From: Streptomyces halstedii
Lineage (GTDB): Bacteria; Actinomycetota; Actinomycetes; Streptomycetales; Streptomycetaceae
Reading direction: 5' to 3'
NCBI GenBank assembly: GCA_000720535.1
Contig: JOAZ01000016.1
Location: forward strand, 1 to 64,000
Length of the DNA stretch: 64,000 nucleotides
Part shown: piece by piece, positions 4,713-61,141 of the stretch
Layout of the letters: each line of letters starts with the position of its first letter
How positions within the stretch are numbered: the stretch's first letter is position 1
The notes under the pieces: generated by a model
What the model was told of the DNA's origin: nothing
Database searches by the model: none
What the model saw: the letters and a program-made list of their open reading frames with translations, nothing else
Position numbers and translations under genes: made by a program

Positions 4713-4719
4713 GGCCGGT

Positions 4720-11998: not shown

Positions 11999-12013
11999 GA
12001 TCGATCATCGATC
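11999..12013. promoter_or_regulatory. perfect palindrome upstream of aceE
   Basis: GATCGAT-C-ATCGATC is a 15-bp perfect dyad in an AT-richer stretch about 100 bp before the aceE start. It could be an operator for the adjacent GntR protein or another regulator of pyruvate dehydrogenase. The role is inferred from position only. Confidence 0.45.
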
Positions 12014-12110
12014 GGCCCCTTACAGTTCACTCACGGGCCCACCGGCCCTATCGCCCTGTCCTGCCAGCCAGGGACCTCTCCACCCCCTCCCACTCCGGAA
12101 GGCGGCGATC

Positions 12111-14792: not shown

Positions 14793-14800
14793 CACGGGTG

Positions 14801-14839
14801 CGGGGCGGCTGTCCGGGTGTTTCCCGGGGGGCCGCCCCG
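14801..14839 (+). terminator. terminator hairpin after aceE
   Basis: A 9-bp outer stem (CGGGGCGGC / GCCGCCCCG) with an inner CCGGG/CCCGG pairing, starting about 8 bp after the aceE stop codon. Confidence 0.7.
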
Positions 14840-14878
14840 TCGTCGTGACCGGGCGGGCGCGGCACGCACAATGGCCGC

Positions 14879-15847: not shown

Positions 15848-15930
15848 GCGCCTGTCACCGGTGTCCGGCCTTCCCGTCTTTGCCCGCTGGGCGTGCGTGG
15901 CCCGGCGCCAGGGCGGATGCTGGAGCGGTG

Positions 15931-16452
15931 ATGGACGAGACGGAGTTCTGGGAGATCGTCGACAGCACCCGCGAGGCCGCCGAGGGTGACCCCGACGACC
16001 ATGCCGAGGTGCTCGTCGAGCGGTTGGTGCGGCTCGATCCCGAATCCGTGCTGGACTTCGCCCGGCACTTCGAGGCCCGCTACAACCGCGCCTACCGCTG
16101 GGACCTGTGGGGCGCGGCGGCCGTCCTGCTGGGGGGTGCGGACGACGACGCCTTCGACTCCTTCCGGTGCTGGCTGATCGGGCAGGGCCGGGAGGTCTTC
16201 GAGGGTGCCGTGCAGGACCCGGACACCCTCGCGGAGATCCTGGAGGACTTCGACGAGGAGTTCGACGGCGACGGCGAGGAGCTGGGCTACGCCGCCGACG
16301 AGGCGTACGAGCAGCTGACCGGCGTGGTCTCCCCGGACCTGGGCCTGCCGCCGCAGCCGGAGCGGCCGGAGGGCACACCGCTGGAGCCGGACGACGAGGC
16401 GGCCCTCGCGGAGCGGTTCCCGATGCTCTGGGAGCGCTTCGGCGCGATGTGA
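15931..16452 (+). CDS. DUF4240 domain protein
   Basis: A 173-aa acidic protein beginning MDETEFWEIVDSTREAA. It has the conserved-looking ARYNRAYRWDLWGAAAVLLGG and SFRCWLIGQGREVFEGAVQDPDTLAEI stretches of DUF4240, a family of uncharacterised soluble actinobacterial proteins. A GTG one codon upstream could also be the start. Its stop lies at the edge of a 41-bp direct repeat shared with the end of the convergent GNAT gene. Confidence 0.85.
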   Translation: MDETEFWEIVDSTREAAEGDPDDHAEVLVERLVRLDPESVLDFARHFEARYNRAYRWDLWGAAAVLLGGADDDAFDSFRCWLIGQGREVFEGAVQDPDTLAEILEDFDEEFDGDGEELGYAADEAYEQLTGVVSPDLGLPPQPERPEGTPLEPDDEAALAERFPMLWERFGAM

Positions 16453-16541
16453 CCGGCCGGCCGTGCCGAGCGCCCTCTCACGGGGTCAGCGGCGCGGTGC
16501 GACCCGCCGGCCGTGCCGAGCGCCGTCTCACGGGGTCAGCG
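16451..16541. repeat. 41-bp direct repeat containing the GNAT gene 3' end
   Basis: Two copies, at 16451-16491 and 16501-16541, have a period of 50 bp and only two mismatches. The right-hand copy contains the stop codon and last codons (SLTP-stop) of the GNAT gene. The left-hand copy is the same sequence repeated in the spacer and starts within the DUF4240 stop codon. Confidence 0.85.
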
Positions 16542-17058
16542 AACGGCCCATCAGGACGTCGTCCACGTACCGGCCGTCCAGGAAGACCTCTCCGGGCAGC
16601 ACGCCCTCGACGGCGAACCCCTCCGAGGCGTAGAGGGCCCGCGCGGGGGCGTTGTGCCCGAGGACCCGCAGGGTCAGCCGTACCGCGCCCTGCCGCAGCG
16701 CCTCGGTGCGGGCGGCCCGCAGCAGCACCCGGGCCAGGCCCTGCCCCCGTGCCCACTCGGCCACGGCCAGTCCTTGTATCTGCCGTACGTGGGCGGTGGC
16801 GGCGAGCGGGGTCGGGCACGCGAGCCGGATGTACCCGGCGAGCCGCCGTCCGCCGTCGTCGGTGTCCGCCTCCGCGAGGAGGAACTCCTCGGGCCGGTGC
16901 CGGTCGTCGAAGAACGGGAGGTACGGGGGCCGGGGCCGCGGCTGTACGGAGTGCAGCGTGGACCAGGTGGCCCGGTCGAGCTCCGCGAGCGCGGGCTCGT
17001 CGGCGGGACGTGCGAGACGGACGGGGCACAGGGAGCGGAGCTGCGGTGCGGACGGCAT
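16528..17058 (-). CDS. GNAT-family N-acetyltransferase
   Basis: A 176-aa acetyltransferase. The acetyl-CoA site reads QIQGLAVAEWARGQGLARVLLRAA, matching the Q/RxxGxG/A motif A of the GNAT fold. It is followed by the motif-B-like NAPARALYASEGFAVEG. The substrate is unknown. The ATG is the start of the recognisable domain (MPSAPQLRSLCPVRLARPADE); the frame stays open farther upstream but there overlaps the divergent neighbour. It is probably cytoplasmic and expressed alone. Confidence 0.87.
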   Translation of the reverse strand: MPSAPQLRSLCPVRLARPADEPALAELDRATWSTLHSVQPRPRPPYLPFFDDRHRPEEFLLAEADTDDGGRRLAGYIRLACPTPLAATAHVRQIQGLAVAEWARGQGLARVLLRAARTEALRQGAVRLTLRVLGHNAPARALYASEGFAVEGVLPGEVFLDGRYVDDVLMGRSLTP

Positions 17059-17167
17059 GGCTGCCACTGTGTCACGCCGTGGCGGTGTGGCGGGAGTGGG
17101 TGACGAGGCCCGCGCCACAGGCCGTGTGACCAGCCCGGTGGCGGGGCTCATGGGGCAGGATGGGCCC

Positions 17168-18067
17168 ATGCCGCCCTCCCGTATCGCCGTCAGCGGATCG
17201 ACCGGACTCATCGGAGCGGCGCTCGTGCGCTCGCTGCGGACCGACGGGCACGAGGTGGTGCGCCTGGTGCGCCGCCCCGCCGCCGCCGGGGACGAGGTGG
17301 AGTGGGACCCGAAGCGCCGGTACGTCGACGCGGCGGGGCTGGTCGGCTGCGACGCCGTCGTCCATCTCGCCGGGGCCGGGGTCGGGGACCACCGGTGGAC
17401 CGAGGCGTACAAGCGGGAGATCCGGGACAGCCGGGTGGACGGGACGGCGGCGATCGCCGAGGCCGTCGCCTCGCTGGACACCCCGCCGAAGGTGCTGCTG
17501 TCCGGGTCGGCCGTCGGCTACTACGGCGACACCGGGGACCGGGCCGTCGACGAGGGCGCGCCGCCGGGCGAAGGGTTCCTGCCGTCCGTCTGCGTGGAGT
17601 GGGAGGGGGCCACGGCGCCCGCCGAGGAGGCGGGCATCCGCACGGCGCACGCCCGTACCGGCCTGGTCGTCGCCCGGGAGGGTGGTGCCTGGGGCCGCCT
17701 CTTCCCGCTCTTCCGGGCGGGCCTCGGCGGCCGGATGGGCAACGGCCGGCAGTACTGGAGCTTCATCGCCCTGCACGACCACGTGGCCGCGCTGCGGCAC
17801 ATCCTGGACACCGAGGCCCTGTCCGGCCCGGTCAACCTGACCGGCCCCGCGCCGGTGACCAACGGTGAGGTGACGGCCGCCATGGGACGGGTGCTGCACC
17901 GCCCGACCCTCTTCACCGCTCCGGCGCCCGCCCTGCGGGTCGCGCTCGGAGAGTTCGCCGGGGACGTCCTGGGCAGCCAGCGGGTGCTCCCCGGCCGGCT
18001 CCTCGACTCGGGCTTCACCTTCGCCTTCCCCGGCATCGACGCCGCCGTCCGCGCGGCGCTGCGCTGA
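17168..18067 (+). CDS. TIGR01777-family NAD(P)-dependent epimerase-like protein
   Basis: A 299-aa extended-SDR-like protein. The N-terminal Rossmann motif is VSGSTGLIGAALVRSLR. Also seen are DAVVHLAGAGVGDHRWTEAYKREIRDSRVDGT and the GSAVGYYGD active-region motif, then GRMGNGRQYWSFIALHDHV and a C-terminal domain. These match the YfcH/SulA-like TIGR01777 family, whose reaction is not firmly established. It starts at the ATG immediately before the nucleotide-binding strand. Confidence 0.9.
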   Translation: MPPSRIAVSGSTGLIGAALVRSLRTDGHEVVRLVRRPAAAGDEVEWDPKRRYVDAAGLVGCDAVVHLAGAGVGDHRWTEAYKREIRDSRVDGTAAIAEAVASLDTPPKVLLSGSAVGYYGDTGDRAVDEGAPPGEGFLPSVCVEWEGATAPAEEAGIRTAHARTGLVVAREGGAWGRLFPLFRAGLGGRMGNGRQYWSFIALHDHVAALRHILDTEALSGPVNLTGPAPVTNGEVTAAMGRVLHRPTLFTAPAPALRVALGEFAGDVLGSQRVLPGRLLDSGFTFAFPGIDAAVRAALR

Positions 18068-49130: not shown

Positions 49131-49590
49131 GATTCCTCCTGCGGTGGGGGGAGGTACGGGGAAGGGCGGAGCAGCCTCACATGGCAACGCGCCGTGCCCT
49201 CAAGGCTTTGAAGGTTCTTGCAGCAAGGATGCAAAACCTCGTGCGCAGCAGACCGTACGAGCCTGACCTGCCCCGGTCAACCCCCTGGACACGACGCGAT
49301 GACGCCCCGCTCACATCCACGAAATCTCGGAGATTTCTTCCTGCAAGGACTTACGCAAGATATTGCGGCCCTGTTAAGTTCGTCCCGACTCCGGCCCGGC
49401 CGGCCGGGGGTCCGGTCCGCCGGGCCCCACGCGCCCGGCCGGCCGGGCCGGTCACGGCGCGGAGAGGTCCGGCGAGTCGCTTCCCCGCCGGCCCGACCTG
49501 GGCCGACTTCCGGACCTCTTCCGCGCGCGGGGGGACGGCCCTCTTCCGCGTGGGGACGGTCCCCTTCCGCGCCCGCCCGTCACGCCTCGC
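49131..49590. other. promoter region between alpha-amylase and the yhf-type cluster
   Basis: About 460 bp without a gene. The left 240 bp hold the amylase regulatory motifs and a GAAATCTC-G-GAGATTTC palindrome (49321-49337). The right part (about 49380-49590) is GC-rich with repeated CTTCCGCG-type words and may hold the end of the yhf-type transcript. Confidence 0.6.
49217..49359 (-). promoter_or_regulatory. CTTGC-motif operators of the amylase promoter
   Basis: Three related sites: CTTGC-A-GCAAG (49217-49227, a perfect dyad), CTTCCTGCAAG (49337-49347) and CTTACGCAAG (49350-49359). On the gene's strand they read as CTTGCRnnAAG direct repeats. Repeats of this kind occur in Streptomyces amylase and maltose promoters regulated by the MalR/Reg1 type LacI repressor. 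A malR-type gene lies 12 kb away. Confidence 0.65.
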
Positions 49591-50832
49591 TCAGGCCGCG
49601 TGCCGGCCGGTGCGCAGGGGGGTGCCGACCGCGAGACCTTCCGGGTCCAGTGCCAGCGACAGGGCGGCGGTGGCCCCGATGTCCGCCAGGCTGTGCGCGT
49701 CCGGGAGGAGTTCCACCCCGCGCGCCCCCGGTCGGTGGATGAGCACGGGCACGTACTCACGGGTGTGGAGCGCGTGGCCGATCGTGGGATCGTTCCCGTG
49801 GTCTCCGGTGACGATCAGCCGGTCGCCGGGGTCCGCGAGCAGCGCCAGCAGCCCGGCGAGGCCCGCGTCCACCTGCTCCAGCAGGCGGCCGTAACGCTCC
49901 GGGTCCTGCTGGTGCCCCGCCAGGTCCGTCTCCTGGACGTTCGCGACCACGAGGGCGTCGCCCTCGGCGCGTACCGCCTCCAGGGTGTGCGCGAGGACGT
50001 CGGCGGTGGCGACGGCCGGACGGCGCGTCGCCGCCTCGCACTCCAGGATGTCGGCGGCCTTGCCCACCAGGACGACCGGGATCCCCGCCCGGACCGCCAG
50101 TTCGGGAAGCTGGCGGGTGTGGTCGAGCGCGGCGCCCAGGTGCCGCACCTGGAGGCCGCCGTTGCGGTAGAAACCGGTGGCGGGCGTGTCCAGCCCGATC
50201 GTCCCCCCGTCGCCGGGACGGACGTGGTCACGGAGCGGGCCGTCCGCGTGGCCGCCGACGGCGATGACCCGGGCGACCGGCGCGACGGCGCGCACCGTGC
50301 GGGCGACGGCGAGGATGCCGTGGGGTCCGTCGAAGGGCAGGTCGTCCAGGCGGCCGGAGGCGTTCCAGTTGATGCCGGGGTCGGCCTCCAGGTTGTCGTG
50401 GACCAGGACCGTCCCGTCGACGACGAGCAGCGGCTGCCCGTCGAGCCGTTCGACCCGGTGGCCGGCGGTCGTGAGCGCGTCGGTCACCTCGCCGATGTGG
50501 TCGGCGAGCCTGGCCACCGTCACCCGGCTGAAGTCGGCGCCCATCATGGTCTGGTGGCCCGCGAAGGTGTCCGCCCCCGGGTAGCCGAGCGCGGCCCGGC
50601 CCGCGGCCACGGGCAGGTGGGTGCGGCGTGCCAGATCCGGGTGCGGGTGCACCAGCCCGAGCCCCAGCGCCCCGAGCACCGGCAGCCGCAGCGGCCGCCC
50701 GAACGCCGTGCGGCAGTGGTCGAGCACGTGTCGGCAGGTGTCGGCGGCGAGGTCGCCGGGGCGCAGGTCGCCCGCGTCGGGCATGGCGCCGACGCCGAAT
50801 CCGTCGATGACGACGATGACGGTCTTGGCCAT
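49591..50832 (-). CDS. yhfW: YhfW-like phosphopentomutase-family enzyme
   Basis: A 413-aa member of the alkaline-phosphatase superfamily, closest in layout to phosphopentomutase. The N-terminal metal site is MAKTVIVVIDGFGVGAMPDA. The phospho-threonine region reads AGHQTMMGADFSR, resembling TGHWEMMG of DeoB with changes. Later metal ligands are seen in ANVQETDLAGH and VTGDHGNDPTIGHALHTRE. True DeoB keeps DTTTGHWE, which is altered here, so YhfW of the yhf operon is the better match. It is last in an eight-gene run and starts 10 bp after the yhfX-like gene. Confidence 0.83.
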   Translation of the reverse strand: MAKTVIVVIDGFGVGAMPDAGDLRPGDLAADTCRHVLDHCRTAFGRPLRLPVLGALGLGLVHPHPDLARRTHLPVAAGRAALGYPGADTFAGHQTMMGADFSRVTVARLADHIGEVTDALTTAGHRVERLDGQPLLVVDGTVLVHDNLEADPGINWNASGRLDDLPFDGPHGILAVARTVRAVAPVARVIAVGGHADGPLRDHVRPGDGGTIGLDTPATGFYRNGGLQVRHLGAALDHTRQLPELAVRAGIPVVLVGKAADILECEAATRRPAVATADVLAHTLEAVRAEGDALVVANVQETDLAGHQQDPERYGRLLEQVDAGLAGLLALLADPGDRLIVTGDHGNDPTIGHALHTREYVPVLIHRPGARGVELLPDAHSLADIGATAALSLALDPEGLAVGTPLRTGRHAA

Positions 50833-50842
50833 GGGGTGCTCC

Positions 50843-52006
50843 TTACAGGGCTCGGCCGTGGGAGTCGTACAGGCCGTTCAGCCGGGGGGTGCCGGAGGAC
50901 AGTCCGGAGACGACGGCGACGGTCGACCGGGTCACGAAGATCTGGGTACGGAAGGCGAGCAGCGCGGTGTCCCCGACGCGGACGTCCGACGCGCGCTCGG
51001 GCGGGTCGAGCAGCCGGTAGTAGTCGATGTTCTCGGCGGGCGCGGGCCGCACGCCGAGCCGGGTACCGGTGCGCGGGAGGAGGGCGCCGCGGATCCGGGA
51101 GCGGCTGTAGAAGCCCCCGCCGTGTATGGCGGGGCGGCCGTCGTCGAGGGTGTGGGCGACTTCGCTGACGTACACGTAGGCGGGCTTCTCCGGCTGGCCG
51201 GGGTCGAGGGCGTGCAGCGGGGTCGTGCCGGTCAGGGCGTGGCCGGGCTCGCCGTGGGTGGCGCCCAGTTCGGCGAGCAGCGGCAGGGAGGCCATCGAGG
51301 TGGCGCTGGGGGCGCTGAGCTTGAGGTCGTGGTGTCCGCGCGCGGCCAGGAGGTCGCGGGCCTTCAGCGCCAGGCCGAAGTTGGGTGTGGCGGTCGGCAC
51401 GCCCGTCGCGGGGTCGCACAGGACGCACGGGAAGGCGGTGACGCCCGCGATCCGGATGCCGTCCAGTTCCTCGGCGTCCTTGGCGAACGCGTCCAGGCGG
51501 TCGAGGGGGACGCCGCCCTCCTGCCCGGGGTAGGCGGCGCCGTCGGCGGCTTCGAGCCGGACCAGGACGTCCTGGACGAAGCCCAGGCCGCGTGCCGCCT
51601 CGGCGACGGCGCGGGCGTTGGCCAGGTCGAAGACCGTGACGGCCTCCGGACGCCAGGCCAGCATGTCCGGCAGTGCCCGAGGGGGGATCTGGACGAGGTG
51701 GCCGAGGTTGCCGGGCCGGGCGCCGGCGGCGTGGAGGGCGCGTGCCTCGGCCGGATCGATGGCGGCCGAGCGGGGGATGTGCCGGGCGACGGCCCGGATG
51801 AGTTCGGGGTTGCGGCCGATCTGCTTGACGACGAACCAGAGGCTGATGCCGAGGCGTTCGGCCTCCGCCGCCAGCAGCGCCGCGTTGGCCTCGACGGCGT
51901 CCAGGTCCACGACGTAGGTGTCGGGCGGGATCTCGCCGTCGCGGTGGAGCGCGGCCGCGGCGTCGACGAGCCCGGGGTTGCGGGTGAGCACGGTGTCGAG
52001 AAACAC
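50843..52006 (-). CDS. yhfX: YhfX-like PLP enzyme (alanine-racemase fold)
   Basis: A 387-aa protein starting with GTG. An N-terminal PLP-barrel of the alanine racemase type is seen in DTYVVDLDAVEANAALLAAEA followed by LWFVVKQIGRNPELIRAV, where the Lys of VVKQIGRNP is the expected PLP lysine (YxxKANAYG equivalent). Other conserved parts are SMASLPLLAELGATHGEPGHALTG and VSEVAHTLDDGRPAIHGGGFY. It is probably an amino-acid racemase or lyase of unknown substrate. It starts 2 bp after the yhfS-like gene, so translation is coupled. Confidence 0.85.
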   Translation of the reverse strand: MFLDTVLTRNPGLVDAAAALHRDGEIPPDTYVVDLDAVEANAALLAAEAERLGISLWFVVKQIGRNPELIRAVARHIPRSAAIDPAEARALHAAGARPGNLGHLVQIPPRALPDMLAWRPEAVTVFDLANARAVAEAARGLGFVQDVLVRLEAADGAAYPGQEGGVPLDRLDAFAKDAEELDGIRIAGVTAFPCVLCDPATGVPTATPNFGLALKARDLLAARGHHDLKLSAPSATSMASLPLLAELGATHGEPGHALTGTTPLHALDPGQPEKPAYVYVSEVAHTLDDGRPAIHGGGFYSRSRIRGALLPRTGTRLGVRPAPAENIDYYRLLDPPERASDVRVGDTALLAFRTQIFVTRSTVAVVSGLSSGTPRLNGLYDSHGRAL

Positions 52007-52008
52007 GG

Positions 52009-53133
52009 TCAGTCGTCCTCCGGGGCGTCCAGGGCGGCCAGCGAGCGGCGCAGGATGTCGATGACGAGATCCGCGCCCGCCCGCATCGGGTTGATGCGTA
52101 CGGTCCAGTCGGCGAGTTCGGGGAGGTCGTCGAGAGCCGAGCTGGACATCCGGTAGAAGAGCGGGGCGATCTCGTAGCGGGAGTTGGAGCCGACGGGGTA
52201 GGGCGCGGCTCCGAAGCGGGCGGCGACGGAGGGGAGCCGCGCGGCGACGGGCCGGTCGAGGCGGACGAGGAGGCAGCGGTCCTGGGCGTTGGCGATCCGT
52301 ACCTCGGCCACGCCCTCCACCTCACCGGCCGTCAGCCGTCGTGCGACCTCGGCGCCCACCCGCGACTGCACCGACCACATGACGGGGACGTGGGTGAGGG
52401 CGCGCAGGGCGTCGAGTGCCTGGTGGCCCTGGACCTGCCCGCCGCCGGAGTAGTTGTCGCGGCGGATGTGCGCGACCAGGTCGCGGGCTCCGACGACGAC
52501 GCCGACGCCCTCCGGTCCGTGCAGTTTGAACAGGGAGAAGCAGGAGGCGTCGGCTCCCAGTTCCACACCGGCGGCGGGGGTGCGCATGACGGCGTAGTTG
52601 TCGTCGACGATCGTGCGGACCCCGGCCGCCCGGCAGGCGGCGATGACCTCGGCCGGATCGTAGGAGTCGGCGAGCCGCTGGCGGGTGTGCTGGATGTACG
52701 CCCAGCGGGTCCGCCCGGACGCCAGGGTCTCGCCCAGGGTCCGGGCGTCGTTGAAGTCGGCGTCGAGGGTCCGTACGCCGATGCCCCTCAGGGTGACCTC
52801 CGTGGTGCGGTAGACCGGGGCCCGGTGGATGAGCAGCGGGTCGCCCGCGCGGACGGCCGCGCTGAGGGCGGCCCGGATCGCGCCCGTGCCCGCGCCCTGT
52901 ACGAGGGCGGCGTCGTCGGCACCGAAGAAGTCGGCGAGCACCGCCTCGACGCGCGCGGTGGTGCGGGGGCGGCCGAGGCCGGGGACGACTCCGGCGTCGG
53001 CGGAGAAGAGCTCGTGGCCCTCGAAGTGTGCCGCGGTCGCCTCCAGCAGCCGGAACTGCGTGGCGACGGCGTCCTCCAGGCCGACGGTCGCCAGCGGGAA
53101 GGTGGGGGGAAGTCCGGGTGGTACGGGGCTCAT
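52009..53133 (-). CDS. yhfS: YhfS-like PLP-dependent aminotransferase-fold enzyme
   Basis: A 374-aa fold-type I PLP protein. Visible are the cofactor loop VQGAGTGAIRAALSAAV, the Asp in TIVDDNYAVMR, and the Schiff-base lysine motif CFSLFKLHGPEGVGVVVG. The shape is like SelA/cystathionine-lyase relatives and the YhfS protein of the yhf operon. The substrate is unknown. Only 1 bp separates it from the upstream php-like gene, and 2 bp from yhfX, so these three form the tightest part of the operon. Confidence 0.85.
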   Translation of the reverse strand: MSPVPPGLPPTFPLATVGLEDAVATQFRLLEATAAHFEGHELFSADAGVVPGLGRPRTTARVEAVLADFFGADDAALVQGAGTGAIRAALSAAVRAGDPLLIHRAPVYRTTEVTLRGIGVRTLDADFNDARTLGETLASGRTRWAYIQHTRQRLADSYDPAEVIAACRAAGVRTIVDDNYAVMRTPAAGVELGADASCFSLFKLHGPEGVGVVVGARDLVAHIRRDNYSGGGQVQGHQALDALRALTHVPVMWSVQSRVGAEVARRLTAGEVEGVAEVRIANAQDRCLLVRLDRPVAARLPSVAARFGAAPYPVGSNSRYEIAPLFYRMSSSALDDLPELADWTVRINPMRAGADLVIDILRRSLAALDAPEDD

Positions 53134-53134
53134 G

Positions 53135-54091
53135 TCAGTTCTCCTCGTCGCTCGCGCCGCTCAGGAAGCGCAGCGGGTTGCGGCGGGTCAGCAGGTCGAT
53201 CAGGTCGTCGTCGGCGCCCGCCGCCCGGAGCGCGGGCAGGAAGTGGCGGAAGAGGTGCCCGTACCCCTGGCCGCCCTCGTCCCGGAGGTATCCGTGGCGC
53301 GAGATGTCGCAGCTGAGCAGGGCCCGGTCGGCGTGTCCGGCCTCCACCAGCGCGAGCAGCAGCCGCAGCCGGGTCCGGTCGCTCTGGTAGGAGGACTTGC
53401 CGACCGTGTCGAAGGCGACGTACGCCCCGCTCGCCGCGATCTCCCGGTGGACGCCCGGGTCGTCCAGGAGGTCCTGGTGGCCGATGCTCACACGGTGGGC
53501 GGGCAGCCCCTCGGCGGTGAGCAGTTCCAGCTGGGCGAGCCCGCCGCGGCCCAGCTGCGCGTGGGTGGCGAGGGAGAGGCCGGTGGCCCGGGCGGCCCGC
53601 GCGCCGGCTCGCAGCACCGTGGCCTCGGCAGGGGTGGGGACGTCCCCGTGGCTGCCGAGTTCGCCGAGGACGCCGGGGCGGACACCGGTCGTGCCGATGC
53701 CGTCCTCGATCTCGCGGACCAGGACCGCGGTGAGCGCTTCCACGTCGGCGCCGTCGATCTCGGGCGTGTGGAACGGCTCGTAGTACCAGCCGGTCGCGGC
53801 GACCACCGCGACCTGGGCGTCCCGCGCGATCGAGGCCAGGGCGCGGGCGTCGCGTCCCATGCCCCGGCAGGTCAGCTCCACGACCAGGGAGAGCCCGAAC
53901 TCCTCCCGTAGCTCGCTCAGTTCGGCGGTCACCGCCGCAGCGTGGAGCCGTGGGTCGAGGACGGCCGCGCCGTCACCCCGCTGGTCCAGGTCGAGGACGA
54001 GGTGCTCATGGGCGAGGACGGGGCCGTGGACGGCCTCGGTCGCGAGGTCACCGCTGACGGTACGCAGGGTGTGCCGGGCGGAGTGGTTCAT
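53135..54091 (-). CDS. php: phosphotriesterase-homology (Php) metalloenzyme
   Basis: A 318-aa amidohydrolase-fold protein. The metal-binding pair is in GPVLAHEHLVLDLDQ (HxH), with further His ligands in SLATHAQLGRGGLAQLELL and RVSIGHQDLLDD and the catalytic Asp in ALLSCDISRHGYL. The usual carboxylated Lys position is replaced by a region around VLGELGSHGDVP, where Glu may bridge the metals as in Php proteins. Such enzymes are probable lactonases or phosphodiesterases. It sits between the transporter and the yhfS-like gene. Confidence 0.86.
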   Translation of the reverse strand: MNHSARHTLRTVSGDLATEAVHGPVLAHEHLVLDLDQRGDGAAVLDPRLHAAAVTAELSELREEFGLSLVVELTCRGMGRDARALASIARDAQVAVVAATGWYYEPFHTPEIDGADVEALTAVLVREIEDGIGTTGVRPGVLGELGSHGDVPTPAEATVLRAGARAARATGLSLATHAQLGRGGLAQLELLTAEGLPAHRVSIGHQDLLDDPGVHREIAASGAYVAFDTVGKSSYQSDRTRLRLLLALVEAGHADRALLSCDISRHGYLRDEGGQGYGHLFRHFLPALRAAGADDDLIDLLTRRNPLRFLSGASDEEN

Positions 54092-54137
54092 GTGGGGGTT
54101 CCTTCTTCGCGTACGGCCCGGTCCGGTCCGGGGCGGG

Positions 54138-55478
54138 TCAGCCCTTGATCGGGGTGAACAGGTCGAGCCAGTACAGGATGTTGAGCAGGACGCCGCCGAC
54201 GATCACGGCCGCCGGTGCGGCGGCCATCTTCACGACGGGACGGCCCATCGCCTCGTTCAGCAGGTACAGTCCGCCGACGACGAGGATGCCGAGCCCGCCG
54301 CCCATGGCGTTGGCGGCCATCAGCGAACCGAAGAGGATCGCGAGCTGGAGGGTGTCGCCGATGGCGCTGCGCAGGTGCTCGGAGGAGTCACGGACGCTGG
54401 GCAGCTTGCCGAGGGCCCTGCCGATCAGGGAGAGGGCCAGCACCTCGACGGCGAACACGAGCGCGCCGACGACGGCCGCCACGAACGGGTTCGGCATCAG
54501 GTAGCCGATCGGGTACACCAGCGTGAAGCCCGCGATGCCGTACGCGCCGGAGGCGAGCGCGGTGGTCGCGATCAGCGGGATGAAGCCGAACACCCGGTAG
54601 AAGTCGACCTGGGCGGCCTCGGAGTACTGCCCCTTCGCGATCAGGAAGCTGGTCGCCTCGCCACCGCCGAATATGTGCATCTGGGCGAGCACACAGACTC
54701 CGGCGCCGAGCACCATGAACAGCGGCAGATACCGGCGCAGCCGGGCCGCGCTGGCGCTGAACAGCGACGCCATCGGGTCGTCCGCTTCCGCCACGACGGT
54801 CTCCGCGACACCCGCGGCCCGGTCGGCCCGGCGCTGTCGTATGTCCTTGGAGACGGCCAGCCCGATGAGCATCAGCACACCGGCGGCCATGGCCAGCGCT
54901 CCGGCGAACATGTTCGGCCAGAGCTTCATGGTCATGACGACGAGGGCCAGTTCGAGGACGCCCGCGACACCGCCCCACCTGCGTCCGAACTGCTTGGTGA
55001 TGGCGAGCACCGGGAACAGCGTGAAGAGGAACAGGATCGGCGTCGACATCTGCTGCATCGCGGTCAGGAAGTCGACCGGCAGGTCGTGGGCGACGTTGTT
55101 CGCACCGTTCAGACCGAAGACGACGACCGCGCCCCAGGCTCCGCCCAGCAGCGGGGCGAGCCACTTCTTCGGCGCCAGGATCCCGAGGATGTCGGTGGGC
55201 AGGAAGACCAGCCACGGGTTCAGGACGCCGGTGGACAGGGCCATCGGGGCACCGAGCCCGAAGATGAACCCGGCGGAGAGACCGAACGAGACAGCCGTGG
55301 TCGCGCTGCGCGTGGTGCGCCCCTGGATGAAGTCCAGCATGAAGGGGCGTACGCCGTCGTTGAAGACGGCCAGGGCCATGTGCGAGATGTAGGCCGTCAG
55401 CGCACAGAGGGCTATCACCGTGAGCTGCTGGGCCAGCGTGAAGTCGAGGCCGGCTCCGGCGGCGAGTGTGGTACTCAC
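54138..55478 (-). CDS. yhfT: YhfT-like multi-pass membrane transporter
   Basis: A 446-aa very hydrophobic protein with roughly 11-12 membrane segments and a cytoplasmic loop around residues 205-240 (KDIRQRRADRAAG...). Conserved-looking parts are ISHMALAVFNDGVRPFMLDFIQGR, FGLGAPMALSTGVLNPWLVFLPTDILG, FGLNGANNVAHDLPVDF and the C-terminal GGLYLLNEAMGRPVVKM. It matches the YhfT family, predicted importers of an unknown small substrate. It starts with GTG and is preceded by yhfU (41 bp) and followed by php (46 bp). Confidence 0.85.
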   Translation of the reverse strand: MSTTLAAGAGLDFTLAQQLTVIALCALTAYISHMALAVFNDGVRPFMLDFIQGRTTRSATTAVSFGLSAGFIFGLGAPMALSTGVLNPWLVFLPTDILGILAPKKWLAPLLGGAWGAVVVFGLNGANNVAHDLPVDFLTAMQQMSTPILFLFTLFPVLAITKQFGRRWGGVAGVLELALVVMTMKLWPNMFAGALAMAAGVLMLIGLAVSKDIRQRRADRAAGVAETVVAEADDPMASLFSASAARLRRYLPLFMVLGAGVCVLAQMHIFGGGEATSFLIAKGQYSEAAQVDFYRVFGFIPLIATTALASGAYGIAGFTLVYPIGYLMPNPFVAAVVGALVFAVEVLALSLIGRALGKLPSVRDSSEHLRSAIGDTLQLAILFGSLMAANAMGGGLGILVVGGLYLLNEAMGRPVVKMAAAPAAVIVGGVLLNILYWLDLFTPIKG

Positions 55479-55519
55479 GAGTCACTCCTTGGTGCCCGGG
55501 TGGTGGGAAGAGGCTGGGG

Positions 55520-55876
55520 TCAGCCTCGGGCGGCGATGGCGCGCGCCATGAGGGGGGCGATGACGTCGGTCTGGTCCATCGAGAAGCCGAAGACCTTCTT
55601 GCCGTCGGCCAGCAGTGCGGTGATCTCTTCCTCGGTCGGGACGCTCCGCCCGAAGGTGTGGCAGGCGGCGCTGCCCATCAGGCCGACGAGCACGCCCAGG
55701 GACGCGCCGGCGCCCGTGTGGCAGGTGCCCAGGTAGTAGTCGGCCTGGCCGGCCCGCAGCTTCATCGCGGCGTCCATGTCGCTGGAGGAGACGACGTCCA
55801 GCGTGTCGATGCCGAGCTTGCCGATGACCGCGGTGACTTCGGCCTTGCCGACCCCGCCGGTGAGGATCTTCGTCAT
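55520..55876 (-). CDS. yhfU: YhfU-like DUF2620 protein
   Basis: A 118-aa protein: MTKILTGGVGKAEVTAVIGKLG, then a GTCHTGAGASLGVLVGLMGSAACH glycine-rich stretch with conserved Cys/His, and a C-terminal DQTDVIAPLMARAI. This is DUF2620, which accompanies yhfT. The size and glycine/Cys motif resemble a PTS EIIB-like small subunit, but that is only a resemblance. It is preceded by a 170-bp spacer full of short tandem repeats and a GGGAGCAAC ribosome site. Confidence 0.83.
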   Translation of the reverse strand: MTKILTGGVGKAEVTAVIGKLGIDTLDVVSSSDMDAAMKLRAGQADYYLGTCHTGAGASLGVLVGLMGSAACHTFGRSVPTEEEITALLADGKKVFGFSMDQTDVIAPLMARAIAARG

Positions 55877-55888
55877 GGCTGTTGCTCC

Positions 55889-56008
55889 CTGTGTGTCGGT
55901 CGTTCTGTGTGCGGGTCGTTCTGTGTGCGGGTCGTTCTCTGTGACGGTCGTTCTCTGTGACGGTCCGTCGGTTCTTCGGTTCTTCGGTTCTTCGGTTCTT
56001 TTCGGTTC
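55889..56008 (-). repeat. two short tandem-repeat arrays in the leader of yhfU
   Basis: First array: about five units of 16-18 bp (core CTGTGTGCGGGTCGTT, later CTCTGTGACGGTCGTT). Second array: about four units of TTCGGTTC, at about 55968-56008. The arrays lie between yhfY and yhfU, both transcribed leftward, and are less GC-rich than the surroundings. Confidence 0.85.
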
Positions 56009-56048
56009 GCGCCGGGGCGGGGGCGGCGTGGCCGCCTGCCGCGGCCGG

Positions 56049-56435
56049 TCAGGCTCCGGGGGCGGCGGGGGGCTGCTGGGCCAGTACGGCCAGGTGCATG
56101 CCGAGGAAGTTGACCTCGGACTCGGGAAGCGGGGCCCCCAGTTCCCGTTCGGCACGTGCCGAGACGGCTCGGGCGCGGGCGACGGCGTCGGGGTGGCCGG
56201 CCAGCTCGGCGGCGACCTGCTCGTCGGTGAGGAACTGCTCGATCGGCTCGCCGTCCAGGATCCGGCCGAGAGCCATGATCAGATGGCTGGTCAGCATCCC
56301 CGCCGTCGCTTCGGTGACGGTACGGCCCTCGGCCTCCAGAGAGGCCAGCTCGGCGGTGACGAAGTCCGCCACCTCGGGCCGGGCCTGGCCGCCTTCGCGG
56401 AAGAGCTGGATCCGCAGTGCCAGCTGGTCGTCCAT
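56049..56435 (-). CDS. yhfY: YhfY-like PRD-domain protein
   Basis: A 128-aa helical protein. The sequence LTSHLIMALGRILDGEPIEQF and ESEVNFLGMHLAVLAQQPP fits a single PTS-regulation (PRD) domain with conserved His positions (SHL and GMHLA). In antiterminators PRDs are phosphorylated by PTS proteins, but this one has no RNA- or DNA-binding domain attached. It has its own promoter copy (the TACTGT box 19 bp upstream) and an AGGAGGATCACC site. It lies between the regulator and the transport genes. Confidence 0.8.
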   Translation of the reverse strand: MDDQLALRIQLFREGGQARPEVADFVTAELASLEAEGRTVTEATAGMLTSHLIMALGRILDGEPIEQFLTDEQVAAELAGHPDAVARARAVSARAERELGAPLPESEVNFLGMHLAVLAQQPPAAPGA

Positions 56436-56457
56436 GGTGATCCTCCTGAAATCAACA

Positions 56458-56477
56458 GTAACCAGGATTTTGTATTC
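56458..56477 (-). promoter_or_regulatory. promoter/operator copy upstream of yhfY
   Basis: On the minus strand this reads GAATACAAAATCCTGGTTAC followed by the -10 TACTGT (56455-56460). It matches the yhfZ operator at 17 of 20 positions, keeping the right half CTG-n2-TAC while the left half is degenerate. The first base of the transcript would be about 12-14 bases before the ATG. Confidence 0.75.
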
Positions 56478-56578
56478 TGAGGCCGAGCGAACCTCGGGAG
56501 TGGTGAGACACCGGTCACTGAACCGGGCGGTCAGTACCACCGGGGCCCGGCGGGCCGGTACTCGCCCGGACCCGCCGG

Positions 56579-57517
56579 TCAGTACGAGGGGACACGCTCA
56601 CCACGCAGCACCTCGTTCTGAAGCCGGGTCACCAGCGACAGGTCCAGCGAGTCGCGGACCGCGGCGAGCGCCTTGGCGCCCTCCGACCGGCCGATGACCG
56701 CGGCGGTGGAGTTGCGCAGCGCCAGCTCCCGGGTGACCTCACCCCCGAGCGGCAGCACATCGACCCCGACCCCGAGCCGGTCCTGCGCCTCGTCCAGGTT
56801 CCAGACCGTCGCGTCGACCTCGTCGCGGGCGAACAGATCGGCCAGTTGCATGTACGACGCCTCCCGCCACACCACGTCCTCGCGGTCGGCGAAGACCCGC
56901 TCCACGAGCATCCGCAGATCCTCCGACGCGTGGTCCACGGCCACCCGCAGCCCCGGCGCGTCCAGGTCCACGCCGCGCCGGACCAGCATGCCGTGCGCGC
57001 CCACGTACGTGGCAGGCCCCAGGTCGGCCACCAGCTCCACCGGGTGCTCGGCGATCAGCTGGTCGGCGGCGAAGCGCGACAGGACGACCAGGTCGACCTT
57101 GCCTTCCAGCAGCGCGGCGGTCCGGGCTCCGGCGCCCCGCATGAACGTGATCGCGAACGGCGCGCCCGCTTCCTCGAACGCGCTGCGCAGCCCGGTCGCC
57201 AGACCCTCGTACCGCCGCGAGTAGGGAAGCGGCATGGCCGCGAGCAGGGTCCCCAGGCCGGACAGCCGCCAGAGAGCGGCGCGGTCGGAGTGGACGAGGA
57301 ACGTGCCGAGGTGACCGCGCGCGGTCGTGGAGATCGCCCCGGACTCCTCCAGCAGGCGGAGAGCGGCCTGGACCGTGCCGTTTCCGCACCCCAGCTCCTC
57401 CGCGAAGTCGCGCACACGGGGCAGTCGGGTGTCCGGCTCGTGGTGCAGGAGCAGGACTGCGAGCTGCCGCGCGGCGAGACCGTTGCGCGTGAGGAGGCGG
57501 TCGTCGAGATCGTTCAC
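56579..57517 (-). CDS. yhfZ: YhfZ-like GntR-type transcriptional regulator of the cluster
   Basis: A 312-aa regulator. The N-terminal winged helix reads LAARQLAVLLLHHEPDTRLPRVRDFAEELGCGNGTVQAALRLLEESGAISTTARGHLGTFLV (key GCGNGTVQAALRLLEE). The C-terminal two-thirds resembles a periplasmic-binding-protein fold (AFEEAGAPFAITFMRGAG, LDLVVLSRFAADQLI in part, EASYMQLADLFARDEVDATVWNLDEA), matching the YhfZ C-terminal domain. The GTG start is supported by a -10 TACTGT ending 7 bases before it, so the mRNA looks leaderless. Upstream in-frame codons contain the promoter itself. Confidence 0.86.
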   Translation of the reverse strand: MNDLDDRLLTRNGLAARQLAVLLLHHEPDTRLPRVRDFAEELGCGNGTVQAALRLLEESGAISTTARGHLGTFLVHSDRAALWRLSGLGTLLAAMPLPYSRRYEGLATGLRSAFEEAGAPFAITFMRGAGARTAALLEGKVDLVVLSRFAADQLIAEHPVELVADLGPATYVGAHGMLVRRGVDLDAPGLRVAVDHASEDLRMLVERVFADREDVVWREASYMQLADLFARDEVDATVWNLDEAQDRLGVGVDVLPLGGEVTRELALRNSTAAVIGRSEGAKALAAVRDSLDLSLVTRLQNEVLRGERVPSY

Positions 57518-57524
57518 AAACCAA

Positions 57525-57553
57525 ACAGTAACCAGGATTCTGTATACTGACAA
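57525..57553 (-). promoter_or_regulatory. yhfZ promoter with 20-bp dyad operator
   Basis: Minus strand: -35 TTGTCA, 17-bp spacer, -10 TACTGT, then 7 bases to the GTG start codon. The spacer region (57528-57547) is GTATACAGAATCCTGGTTAC, a perfect GTA-n2-CAG-n4-CTG-n2-TAC dyad. A second copy precedes yhfY. Autoregulation by YhfZ is inferred. Confidence 0.8.
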
Positions 57554-57661
57554 GGGTCAGATGCGGGCCACTTGTACGGGCTCGCGGCCGACCCCGTGAC
57601 CCCGCAAGCGGGCCGGGCGGGCCGGTCCCCCGCGAGAGGCGCCGGAAGGCCGCCCGGGACG

Positions 57662-58201
57662 TCAGCCGGACCGCTGCTCGCCGTCTCGCGGTCCACGGTG
57701 GAACGCGTGGTGCAGAGCGCGCATCCGGCCGGTCAGCTCCGGCGCGGGACCACGCACCTCCAGGCCGGGGACCACGTCACCGATCGCCATGCAGCGCACC
57801 GGGGGCGACGGCACGCCCAGTTCGTCCAGCCATCGCGCCAACTGAGCGGCCGAGTGGGCGTACACGACAGCCCCCAGACCGGCCCAGCCATGCGCGGCGG
57901 CACACATGGGGCAGTGCTCGCCGGAGGTGAAGACGGTGGCCTTCGCCCGCTCGTTCCGGGAAAGGTGAGCCGTGGCCCACCGCACCAGCTCGAATTCCGG
58001 GTGCCACGTCGGGTCGTCGAGCGTATGGACACGATTGCGTTCCTCCGCCAGGACCGTCCCGTCCGCGCCGACCAGCACCGAGCCGAACGGTTCGTCCCCG
58101 GCACGCAACGCCTCGGCCGCGAGATCGACGGCACGCTCCAGACGGGGCAGGTCACCGGCCGCCGGTGCGGCAGGACGGACGGTCGGTTCGTCAGAGTTCA
58201 C
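57662..58201 (-). CDS. nucleoside deaminase-type protein (CMP/dCMP deaminase fold)
   Basis: A 179-aa zinc deaminase. Catalytic motifs: WHPEFELVRWA (HPE in place of HAE) and FTSGEHCPMCAAAHGWAG (CxxC zinc cysteines). The N-terminus has GDEPFGSVLVGADGTVLAEERN, typical of guanine deaminase/TadA relatives. The C-terminal part is longer than TadA and has ARWLDELGVPSPPVRCMAIGDVVPGLEV. The GTG follows a GGGAGGAAG site. It lies upstream of the yhfZ gene on the same strand but has its own start region, so operon membership is doubtful. Confidence 0.87.
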   Translation of the reverse strand: MNSDEPTVRPAAPAAGDLPRLERAVDLAAEALRAGDEPFGSVLVGADGTVLAEERNRVHTLDDPTWHPEFELVRWATAHLSRNERAKATVFTSGEHCPMCAAAHGWAGLGAVVYAHSAAQLARWLDELGVPSPPVRCMAIGDVVPGLEVRGPAPELTGRMRALHHAFHRGPRDGEQRSG

Positions 58202-58431
58202 AGCTTCCTCCCAGAGAATCCCGGGCCGGCACCCGCCGACACGACGCTCGCCACCGTTGCGGCGCTTCCGCCGGAGCCCGGACCCCGGCCGCGGTCCCGC
58301 ACGGCCACCTCCAAGGTACGACGCACGGACACCCGCGCCCGCCGTGGCGCCGCGCACGCACCGGCACCCCGCTTCTGCGGCATACCCCCGCGACCGGGCC
58401 CGCTGTGAGGTGCCCATTACACTCACCGCTC

Positions 58432-59364
58432 ATGTGGCCAGGACAACAGTCGCCTTCCGGACAGCCCAACCCGCAGGACGGGCCCACGGGTTCACCTCCC
58501 ACGCAACCCAGCGGGCCGGGCCCTGAGTGGCATGCCGCGCCCACGGTCGGCATGGGCGCGCCGGAACCGCCCCGCCGCTCCTGGAACCGGACCACGGTCG
58601 CCGTCGTGGCCGCTGCCGCCGTGGTCGTCGTGGCGTGCGGGGTCACCGGTTTCCTGGTGCTCCGCGACGACGGGGGCGGTACGCCGGACACGAAGCCCAC
58701 GGCGGCGGACTCGTCGAGCGGCGACACCACGGACCGGGCGGCTGCCAAGGGCGGCTCGGGCCCGCTCGTCCCGGGCTGGAACACGGTGGTCAACCCCAAG
58801 CGGGGCATCACCTTCGACGCGCCGGGCTCCTGGGCGCGGCAGTCCACGGACTGGGTGAGCTATGTCGCGGAGAAGAGCGATCCCGAGGAGAAGCCGCTGG
58901 TCGCGATGATGGCCCCGGCGGTCCTCAAGGAGAAGTGGTGCACGTCCGACGACGACAAGAACGGCACCCAGGAGGACACCCCGCTCGCCTCGGTGGGCAC
59001 CACCGGGGAGAAGGGCGCCAAGAGCACCGCCGAGGCCGCCGAGGACACCGCGAAGACGTGGGTCTACGGCGCGTACACGCAGCCCGACCGCACCCGTCTG
59101 ACGATCGGTGAGCCGGAGACCTACCGGACGAAGTCGGGTATCGAGGGCAGCCTCGTGACGGTCACCTCGTCCGGTGTTCCGAAGCAGGGCACGTGCGACA
59201 GCGACGGCAAGGCGGTGACCTTCGCCTTCAAGAACGCGGAGGGCGCCTACGTGTCCTGGACCTACGTCGGGGCACACGGGGTGCCCGACGAGGTGCCCGA
59301 CGCCACGATCCGCGAAATCCTCAGCACGGTACGGCTCTACGAGGAGGGCGACGGGGAGGACTGA
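58432..59364 (+). CDS. membrane-anchored protein with extracytoplasmic domain (310 aa)
   Basis: The first 48 residues are Pro/Gly/Gln-rich and cytoplasmic (MWPGQQSPSGQPNPQDG). One membrane helix follows at about 53-76 (TTVAVVAAAAVVVVACGVTGFLVL), then a Thr/Ser/Asp-rich linker and an outside domain from about 105 (PGWNTVVNPKRGITFDAPGSWARQ) to the end, with two Cys (EKWCTSD and GTCDSDG). The domain resembles the DUF-type surface proteins common in Streptomyces; I cannot name it. A hairpin directly overlaps and follows the stop codon. Confidence 0.82.
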   Translation: MWPGQQSPSGQPNPQDGPTGSPPTQPSGPGPEWHAAPTVGMGAPEPPRRSWNRTTVAVVAAAAVVVVACGVTGFLVLRDDGGGTPDTKPTAADSSSGDTTDRAAAKGGSGPLVPGWNTVVNPKRGITFDAPGSWARQSTDWVSYVAEKSDPEEKPLVAMMAPAVLKEKWCTSDDDKNGTQEDTPLASVGTTGEKGAKSTAEAAEDTAKTWVYGAYTQPDRTRLTIGEPETYRTKSGIEGSLVTVTSSGVPKQGTCDSDGKAVTFAFKNAEGAYVSWTYVGAHGVPDEVPDATIREILSTVRLYEEGDGED

Positions 59365-59392
59365 GGGCGAGCGCCGGTCCGGCGGCGCCCTC
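59363..59392. terminator. hairpin overlapping the end of the membrane-anchored protein gene
   Basis: A GAGGGCG/CGCCCTC outer stem plus an inner GCCGG-T-CCGGC form a GC-rich hairpin beginning at the stop codon, in a convergent spacer. Confidence 0.6.
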
Positions 59393-59466
59393 GTCTCCGC
59401 GATCGATGCGCCGAGGGCGTCGCCGCCACCGACCTGGCGACGGCCACGCCCTGCCGTCTCCCGTCG

Positions 59467-59763
59467 CTACCGGGACGGGGCGGGTCCCCGATCCGTGGGC
59501 TCCTCACGGAAGACCTCTGCGGCGGTGCCGGCGACGACCGCACGGCCCAGCCAGTGACGCAGAAGCTCCATGTCACCGCAGGTGGCGACCCTCCGCCTCA
59601 TCTCGTCGGTGACGTCGATACCCCGTACGTCGAAGGCGTACAGAATGCCCTGGACCCAGGCTTGGACGCGGCCCTCCTCGCGGGCCTCGGCACGGCCTTG
59701 GACGCGGCCCTCCTCGCGGATCTCTTCGGACAGGGGCGAGATGTAGAAGGAGAGATCAGCCAC
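59467..59763 (-). pseudogene. 3' fragment of a Rpn/transposase-nuclease-like family gene (copy 1)
   Basis: The 98 codons from VADLSFYISPLSEEIREEG through repeated EGRVQ/EGR units to LRHWLGRAVVAGTAAEVFREE correspond to the C-terminal third of a roughly 300-aa Streptomyces protein family that I recall as PD-(D/E)XK nuclease/Rpn-like. The N-terminal nuclease part is absent; upstream codons in this frame are Arg/Gly/Pro filler. The EEGR repeats are a normal feature of the family. A GTG gives a possible start, but the product would lack the catalytic domain. Confidence 0.6.
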
Positions 59764-59861
59764 CGGGAGCCTCCGCCGCTGTGCGCCCGGCCCGATGCCG
59801 GTGTGCCGTGCGGGACGAACGGGACCGGAACGCCGCGCTACCGATCCCGTCGGCACAGGCA

Positions 59862-60173
59862 TCATTCACCGAAGATCTCTTCGGCAGTCGTAGCGGAAAA
59901 CACACGACCCAGCGACCGGTGGAGGAGCTCCGGATCAGGGCAGGCGGTGATCTTCTCGCGGATGGTGTCGGTGACGCCGATACCCCGCACGTCGAGGGCC
60001 GACAAGAGCATCTCGGCGCGCCCCTCAGCACGCCCCTCGGCACGGCCCTCGTCGCGGATTTCTTCGGAGAGCGGCGAGGTGTAGAAGGAAAGGTCCACGG
60101 CCACCAGGTTCCTCCACTGTTGTGCGGCGGGGCGGTTGCCCAAGCCTTGTGGCGTCCAGCAGGACACCGACAC
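59862..60173 (-). pseudogene. 3' fragment of a Rpn/transposase-nuclease-like family gene (copy 2)
   Basis: A second, similar fragment lies just upstream. It reads QGLGNRPAAQQWRNLVAVDL then SFYTSPLSEEIRDEGRAEGR, and ends HRSLGRVFSATTAEEIFGE. It starts slightly earlier in the family than copy 1, keeping the QGLGxxPAAxQWRNLVAV segment, but again lacks the nuclease domain. The two fragments share the same order of SFY...SPLSEEIR...EGR...TAxEIF, so they are tandem duplicates or the remains of adjacent paralogues. Confidence 0.62.
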
Positions 60174-60354
60174 CGGTCTTGGCTCCGGCCGGAGGGTCGA
60201 ATGAATGCGCGCGGCCGGACGGATCGCGATGAAGAGGGTCTGTGGCCCGCTGCATGTGACATCAGCATATGCAGCGCAACCTGGGTTCTATCCAGTCCAG
60301 TTGGTCCATATCACCCGAGTGGGTGATCAAGCAGATTTACCGACTTGGTGGCGG

Positions 60355-60558
60355 TCACCGCACCAGGTCGATTTCGGCCCAGACCGTCTTGCGTGGGACA
60401 GGTCCGGCCTCGACGCCCCAACGGTCGGCGAGCGCCTCGACGATGAGCAGGCCGCGCCCCGACTCGGCGTCACCGGGCGGGGGTTTGACGGCGCCGGGCA
60501 CGGAAGGCAACCGCTCACCCAGAGTGTCGGTCACCTCGATGCGGAGGCGTACGCCGCG
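60355..60558 (-). pseudogene. 3' fragment of an anti-sigma-type ATP-binding (HATPase) gene
   Basis: On the minus strand, 67 codons read RGVRLRIEVTDTLGERLPSV, later DAESGRGLLIVEALADRWGVE, and end KTVWAEIDLVR. This is the C-terminal half of the short HATPase proteins (RsbW/SpoIIAB-like) abundant in Streptomyces, with the G2-type GRGLLIVEALADRWG motif. The N-box half is gone: upstream codons belong to the antisense of the adjacent XRE fragment. Confidence 0.72.
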
Positions 60559-60568
60559 ATGGACCCCA

Positions 60569-60877
60569 CTCGGGGGCACGATGGTGCTACGTCGACAGCT
60601 CGAACACCTTGTGCAGGCAGCCCAGTTGAGGAACGTCGCCATCCAGGTCATGCCGATTGACCGCGAGGAGCACGCCGGGATGCAAGGGGAGACGCAGGTG
60701 CTGAAGTTCGGGGACGGCTCCGCGCTGGGGCGCTCGGAAGGGGCGTTCAACGGCCGGGCGGTCGATGACCCGAAGCAGCTCAGAATCCTTGAGTTGCGGT
60801 AGGGCATGATCCGAGCCCAGGCTCTCACTCCCCGTGAGTCGCTGGCCTTCATCAACCAACTTTTGGGAGAAACATGA
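60569..60877 (+). pseudogene. 3' fragment of an XRE/DUF5753 regulator gene with internal amber codon
   Basis: The frame reads MVLRRQLEHLVQAAQLRNVA, then IQVMPIDREEHAGMQGETQ, DPKQLRILELR, stop (TAG at 60800-60802), then in the same frame GMIRAQALTPRESLAFINQLLGET and a final TGA. This is the C-terminal half of the XRE-plus-DUF5753 regulators that normally precede a DUF397 gene; the usual residue at the TAG is Tyr (RYGMIRAQ). The N-terminal HTH is missing. Its final TGA overlaps the DUF397 start codon (ATGA). Confidence 0.8.
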
Positions 60878-61089
60878 TCAGCGAGCTCTCCATCGAGGGC
60901 ATTCACGAGCACGAGCTGAAGTGGTTCAAGAGCAGCTACAGCAGTAACAGCAGCGAGGCCGACTGCGTCGAGGCGGCTCCCGGCCCCGGCGGCATCCACC
61001 TCCGCGACTCCAAGAACGCCTCCGGACCGCACCTGAGGTTCGCCCCCACCACATGGAACGCCTTCGTGGCGCACACGGCCGGGCGCTGA
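60874..61089 (+). CDS. DUF397 domain protein
   Basis: A 71-aa protein. It has the family core LKWFKSSYSSNSSEADCVEAA, then GIHLRDSKNASGPHLRFAPTTWNAFV. DUF397 proteins are small partners encoded directly after XRE regulators; some such pairs affect development and antibiotic production. Here the protein is intact, but its regulator gene is truncated and interrupted, so it is probably an orphan. It starts by a 4-bp ATGA overlap. Confidence 0.92.
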   Translation: MISELSIEGIHEHELKWFKSSYSSNSSEADCVEAAPGPGGIHLRDSKNASGPHLRFAPTTWNAFVAHTAGR

Positions 61090-61118
61090 AAGGCCGGGTC
61101 CCTCCGGACCCGGCCTTT
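61089..61118. terminator. bidirectional terminator hairpin after the DUF397 gene
   Basis: A 13-bp perfect stem (AAAGGCCGGGTCC / GGACCCGGCCTTT) with a 4-base loop, beginning at the DUF397 stop codon. The A/T ends make it suitable for both strands; the convergent malR-type gene ends 24 bp away. Confidence 0.9.
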
Positions 61119-61141
61119 CCGTCTCCGCGCGGGCACACGCC

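Follow-up and report, generated by a model that had tools for sequence, protein, structure and literature searches.

The yhfZ-yhfS operon of Escherichia coli K-12 (NC_000913.3, b3383-b3376) comprises, by annotation, eight genes in the order yhfZ-yhfY-yhfX-yhfW-php-yhfU-yhfT-yhfS. No function is given to it in the titles and abstract openings of the papers listed in our literature search, most subscription journals lying outside that search. A plasmid-borne cluster of Cetobacterium somerae (Fusobacteriota; NZ_CP092520) has the order yhfZ-yhfY-yhfU-yhfT-php-yhfS-yhfX-yhfW, with an additional gene between yhfT and php that is annotated as an amidase and scores below the Pfam cut-off. Here we describe a yhf cluster at positions 49591-57517 of a 64,000 nt stretch of Streptomyces halstedii DNA (contig JOAZ01000016.1, positions 1-64,000; hereafter the window). 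Judged from its sequence, it is a real, complete and conserved operon of a type already known, though uncharacterised, and is unusually placed in this strain. The eight families are those of E. coli (identity to the window proteins is 40% for YhfT and 32% for YhfU), in a rearranged order. A preliminary description of the window had pointed to this difference in order, and the E. coli annotation bears it out, but the arrangement is not special to the strain: it is the usual one in Streptomyces and is also that of Cetobacterium.

Family-profile searches assigned the eight open reading frames (ORFs), all on the minus strand, to the YhfZ, YhfY, YhfU, YhfT, Php, YhfS, YhfX and YhfW families. This agrees one by one with the identities proposed from the sequence alone, and the set of eight is complete as claimed. 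YhfT, DUF2620 and YhfZ_C matched as expected, no protein was placed in an unrelated family, and YhfY alone scored just below its Pfam gathering score. The gene yhfZ (56579-57517; GTG start, 312 aa) encodes a GntR-type helix-turn-helix with a YhfZ_C domain (NF041241, 338.9 bits against a cut-off of 260; PF14503, 188.4 bits; PF14502 also matched). It is followed by yhfY (56049-56435; 128 aa), with a probable single PRD domain (PF00874, 21.8 bits, E 2.4e-4, gathering score 23), yhfU (55520-55876; 118 aa), a DUF2620 member (PF10941, 141.8 bits), and yhfT (54138-55478; 446 aa), a multi-pass membrane protein and probable transporter (PF10797, 506.7 bits, E 7.5e-152), whose predicted model is nearly all helix at a predicted local distance difference test score (pLDDT) of 78.8. 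The enzyme genes are php (53135-54091; 318 aa), for a phosphotriesterase-like amidohydrolase (PF02126, 208.1 bits), yhfS (52009-53133; 374 aa), for a fold-type-I pyridoxal phosphate (PLP) enzyme (PF22475, 142.4 bits), yhfX (50843-52006; 387 aa), for an alanine-racemase-fold PLP enzyme (PF21279, 84.7 bits; PF01168, 60.1 bits), and yhfW (49591-50832; 413 aa), for a phosphopentomutase-like metalloenzyme (NF009049, 453.8 bits against a cut-off of 254). Tight spacing of 1-10 bp had been noted for three enzyme genes; the spacing stands (php-yhfS 1 bp, yhfS-yhfX 2 bp, yhfX-yhfW 10 bp), but it packs four genes together. From their sequences, all eight genes look functional.

Of 392 Streptomyces genomes, 47 have a YhfT match at E ≤ 0.001 (46 above the cut-off); YhfT was also found in 2 of 296 genomes sampled across the phylum of the host, both of them Streptomyces, and in 10 of 151 genomes (7 above the cut-off) of the phylum of Thermogemmatispora (Chloroflexota). 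A contig scan gave 97 relatives, the best 80 of which comprised 77 Streptomyces, 2 Thermogemmatispora and 1 Boudabousia. The share of Streptomyces among these 80 loci carries little weight, since a query with one protein retrieves only its close relatives. Enough flanking sequence was present at 77 of the 93 unique Streptomyces loci, and in all 77 the genes were collinear and on one strand, showing that the eight genes are consistently linked elsewhere. All eight were present in 65; the remainder had yhfY-yhfU-yhfT-php-yhfS-yhfX (8 loci), the same with yhfZ in front (2), yhfU-yhfT-php-yhfS-yhfX-yhfW (1) or yhfY-yhfU-yhfT-php (1). Among the 16 loci with too little flank, L048 had a minus-strand yhfW match close to the contig end. 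Both yhfZ and yhfW were lacking from the Streptomyces clusters L082, L084, L092, L097, L099, L102, L103, L110, L203, L211 and L213; they account for all but one of the 12 yhfZ-less loci, and 9 of the 11 lie in the common context beside ffh described below.

Two operator-like sites accompany the cluster, both on the minus strand. Site 1 (57525-57543) lies before yhfZ and has the exact 19-bp core; site 2 (56455-56473) lies before yhfY and differs from the core of site 1 at one position. The sites share a 27-nt direct repeat, and at site 1 a wider dyad frame, TATACA-N6-TGGTTA, covers 57529-57546. In the 7.74-Mb genome these are the only two sites at up to three mismatches, while the reversed control pattern gave none. 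The core was then surveyed in Streptomyces loci, of which 5 of 98 were dropped for a duplicate yhfT, and yhfZ was scored as present above 100 bits. Allowing five mismatches within 200 bp, the core was found ahead of yhfZ in 78 of 78 loci scored as having this gene, at an offset of -26 or -25 in 64 of 79 yhfZ leaders; in another locus, where yhfZ matched less strongly, the site was absent (9 mismatches). The core stands before yhfY in 70 of the 78 loci with yhfZ versus 2 of 11 without it (12 loci were called yhfZ-less, but a yhfY leader was missing in L046), and in none of the 527 leaders belonging to the remaining six cluster genes. The strongest indication that YhfZ reads the dyad is that the site is nearly lost where yhfZ is absent, and on this distribution the dyads are most likely putative YhfZ binding sites.

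Similar dyads occur well outside Streptomyces. The pattern TATYCA-N6-TGRATA was matched at 12 of 12 positions in the yhfZ leader of both Thermogemmatispora loci and in the E. coli yhfX leader (0 of 300 shuffles each), and at 11 of 12 in the yhfZ leaders of E. coli and Boudabousia (1 of 300 each) and of Streptomyces locus L033 (0 of 300), although the cross-phylum shuffle counts are optimistic because the pattern was framed after the sequences had been viewed. In the window itself it scored 10 of 12 before yhfZ (1 of 300) and 9 of 12 before yhfY (9 of 300). In E. coli, related dyads stand ahead of yhfZ and of yhfX; in the window the second dyad lies before yhfY instead. Neither the operator-like site nor the predicted fold of DUF2620 was found described in the literature searched. 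Site 1 overlaps a promoter-like element on the minus strand (57525-57553), with TTGTCA (57553-57548) and TACTGT (57530-57525) separated by 17 nt, which has 8 of 12 consensus bases by our count. The yhfZ start codon lies 7 nt past TACTGT, so the yhfZ mRNA may be leaderless, in which case the start codon would be the expected transcription start.

Php, YhfS and YhfX are sequence relatives of solved proteins: the phosphotriesterase homology protein (1bf6, 4lef), YhfS 4j8l and YhfX 4kbx, respectively. Residues H28, H30, E144, H177, H205 and D262 of Php, K203, Y108, D177 and R351 of YhfS, and K61 of YhfX are kept in all aligned loci, as are D10, T89, D303, H307, D344, H345 and H356 of YhfW, matched by alignment to a solved phosphopentomutase, in every aligned locus with the gene. 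The catalytic roles of these positions were assigned from alignments to solved proteins together with the general biochemistry of these families; for YhfW the roles would be those of the phosphopentomutase metal ligands, the Thr nucleophile and a Lys. With its PF02126 match and its metal-ligand positions, Php is recognisable as a phosphotriesterase-like amidohydrolase. Its bridging position is a Glu, as in E. coli Php (L111); in bacterial phosphotriesterase this position is presumably a Lys, and the ligand roles in Php are likewise assumed. YhfW lies above NF009049, a separate NCBI phosphopentomutase model, and below the DeoB model (TIGR01696, 129 bits against a cut-off of 341.2). The kept positions fit the chemistry put forward in the preliminary description, which comprised opening of an ester or lactone, transamination or racemisation, and phosphate transfer.

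YhfU is predicted to adopt an RpiB/LacAB fold. The model has a pLDDT of 94.7, and the fold assignment rests on the best 23 rows of the fold comparison. A loop of the Cys-Gly-Thr-Gly type, C52-x-T54-G55-x-G57, is present, with C52, T54 (Ser in L207), G55 and G57 conserved. The protein differs from the RpiB/LacAB family in length (118 aa versus 138 aa or more) and in the N-terminal Asp-His (DHAG) motif, which is missing from all 20 YhfU rows aligned and present in nearly all RpiB rows. The similarity is distant: hhalign gave a probability of 34.5%, Foldseek E-values were no better than 2.5e-3, and the Pfam model LacAB_rpiB matched 1 of 61 YhfU members (E 0.084). Alignments A1 and A2 held 61 and 55 rows, chosen by us from the 81 and 77 available.

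A connection to the phosphotransferase system (PTS) is suggested by several genes. H51 of YhfY is invariant in an alignment of 10 proteins, including those of E. coli and Cetobacterium, and within Streptomyces both H51 and H114 are kept in all 89 loci that were aligned, 4 others being left out of the alignment. The window genome encodes HPr (two matches). In L207 (genome G743, from the phylum of Thermogemmatispora), a full-length Enzyme I (TIGR01417, 451 bits against 341.7) lies in a yhf-type cluster which, like the window, contains a YhfY-type PRD protein, YhfS, YhfU, YhfT, YhfW and YhfX. Unlike the window, this cluster has genes on both strands, a yhfX in two pieces, and additional genes for a short-chain dehydrogenase/reductase, a class-III aminotransferase, a second YhfS and a SIS protein that is NagB-II-like (210 bits, below the cut-off of 430); php and yhfZ were unmatched in its 17.5 kb (1-17501). 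Extra genes were searched against families for L207 and for the one amidase-like gene of Cetobacterium. Distant YhfX homologues adjoin a ROK regulator, an M20-type hydrolase and an ABC transporter, annotated at one locus as a sugar transporter, on alphaproteobacterial plasmids (L248, L249, L250 and L251, the 4 loci examined of 13 listed). Such neighbours may point to a substrate with an amino-acid and a sugar part. Genes reported to mark a clade of L. rhamnosus strains include those for DUF2620, PRD, YhfX-family and sigma-54 proteins (PMC7513527).

The location of the cluster was compared by blastn with L187, L188 and L189. A segment of approximately 11.6 kb (window 49528-61141, ends not fixed to the base), comprising the yhf genes and the genes at 57.6-61.1 kb, is absent at the same place in three relatives. 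In genomes G019, G005 and G004 the amylase side runs to window 49.1-49.5 kb; a further 158, 41 and 165 bp on, respectively, comes the sequence that in the window starts at 61.14-61.16 kb and encodes a LacI-type regulator. The expectation that the flanking genes would be closer together in other Streptomyces, and that the cluster is extra DNA within a starch/maltose-type locus, was thereby confirmed. Genome G029, which has no YhfT match, carries a different insert beside the amylase gene, sharing window 58418-59367 at 83% identity and pieces of 59.5-60.5 kb, and for this reason the interval may have taken up DNA repeatedly. No tRNA gene was found at window 48-64 kb, and the two ends of the segment share no repeat of at least 18 nt; integrases were not searched for.

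Elsewhere in the genus the cluster is mostly found at another site. Flanks of more than 800 bases were clustered by context at a bit-score threshold set by us, with the window included and loci fetched twice kept. One context accounted for 56 of 101 upstream flanks, with rimM/trmD on one side and ffh on the other (names assigned by eye), whereas the window is the sole member of its own context on both sides among the loci compared. This commonest site is empty in the window genome: the two flanks of the L098 cluster match contig C27 at places some 100 bp from each other, and long matches to the yhf part of L098 were found on contig C16 only. G019 is the mirror image, with yhf at the common site (L190) and none at the amylase site. 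Five proteins were concatenated for a tree of 91 rows, after removal of 5 of 96 in which gaps exceeded 35%. In this tree the window forms a group with L031 and L032 (support 1.00) within a 15-row clade (1.00). No member of this clade was assigned to the common site, loci with short flanks being counted as other context, and the next branch, L052 with L098, is at that site. This evidence suggests movement or replacement inside the genus. Of the earlier suggestion of acquisition, the extra DNA at the locus stands; a donor outside Streptomyces is not needed, since the genus carries the cluster at other sites, mostly on the ffh side.

On balance we lean, by a little, towards an intact-looking yhf uptake and catabolic operon, repressed by YhfZ and supervised by the PTS, between the amylase and LacI-type regulator genes. 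The operon would have entered, or moved to, this interval. YhfZ would bind the two dyads overlapping the yhfZ and yhfY promoters and repress both, as the placement and loss of the operators suggest, and repression would be lifted when a compound of the pathway binds YhfZ. This compound would be imported by YhfT, after which Php, as an amidohydrolase-type metalloenzyme, may open an ester, lactone or amide bond. The amino-acid half would be handled by YhfS and YhfX, the sugar-phosphate half by YhfU and YhfW, and YhfY may let the PTS tune the system; the direction of flux and the order of these steps are likewise proposals. The most likely substrate class is perhaps an amino acid conjugated with a sugar or sugar phosphate. 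A broader version, in which yhf is a widespread PTS-coupled system for import and breakdown of such conjugates, with YhfU as phosphocarrier or isomerase partner of YhfT and TATYCA-N6-TGRATA as YhfZ operator across at least three phyla, is conceivable but rather doubtful; here YhfU would be a predicted RpiB-fold protein with an invariant loop Cys, and the YhfT family is not tied to a known fold.

Some observations speak against the reading that we favour, in addition to the optimism of the shuffle counts. The yhfY site is missing in eight loci with yhfZ and kept in two without it, the dyad is weak in Cetobacterium (15 of 300 shuffles reach its score), unlike in the window, and before yhfZ in Vibrio (24 of 300), and the Vibrio yhfX leader gave no dyad signal (152 of 300). 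The promoter scan lists no promoter at 57525-57553. Enzyme I was found in the cluster of one genome, L207, whose extra genes were the only ones compared with families besides the amidase-like gene of Cetobacterium. The sugar-phosphate arm is not encoded in every case: 11 of the 77 Streptomyces clusters with enough flank, and the two Thermogemmatispora loci, lack yhfW. Isomerase activity of YhfU is doubtful because the Asp-His motif of RpiB is missing, for which reason we do not class it as an isomerase.

Three alternatives were weighed. YhfT and YhfU might form a PTS-like permease, with C52 of YhfU as an EIIB-like phosphocarrier on an RpiB-like fold that phosphorylates the imported substrate, and YhfY as the matching PRD protein; the Cys is invariant, yet RpiB-type folds outscore the EIIB fold for the predicted model, and we consider this unlikely. 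Less probable still is a pentose-phosphate branch, in which YhfU and YhfW would act on a nucleoside- or ribosyl-type substrate and the PLP enzymes on its amino-acid part; equally improbable is its proposed course from 1-phosphate to 5-phosphate to ketose 5-phosphate. The phosphopentomutase positions that YhfW retains, and the predicted fold and C-x-T-G-x-G loop of YhfU, agree with such a branch, but the lack of the DHAG motif, the low DeoB score and the clusters without yhfW argue against it. As to origin, recent arrival of the island from outside Streptomyces would suit the patchy occurrence of YhfT within the genus and across the phylum and the two flanks unlike those of other loci. The G+C content of the cluster (0.67-0.76) is close to that of its surroundings, however, and in the tree the window is nested within Streptomyces; such an arrival was already disfavoured and is very improbable.

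Under the favoured reading of a YhfZ-repressed uptake operon, the conserved operator-like site could serve as a reporter for screening inducers, while the predicted DUF2620 fold and the PTS connection narrow the candidate chemistry. Strains that carry the cluster at this locus form natural pairs with strains that lack it there. Together, the operator, the fold, the PTS link and the strain pairs make the old question of the E. coli operon directly testable.

The segment absent from the three relatives holds further genes. Adjoining yhfZ is a cytidine/tRNA-adenosine-deaminase-like gene (57662-58408; dCMP_cyt_deam_1). A plus-strand gene at 58540-59364, without Pfam match, is also present in G029 (83% identity at the DNA level), again next to the amylase gene. 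Two related short ORFs on the minus strand (59467-60173) encode charged repeats (repeat family D1), and similar DNA is present on contig C28 of the window genome.

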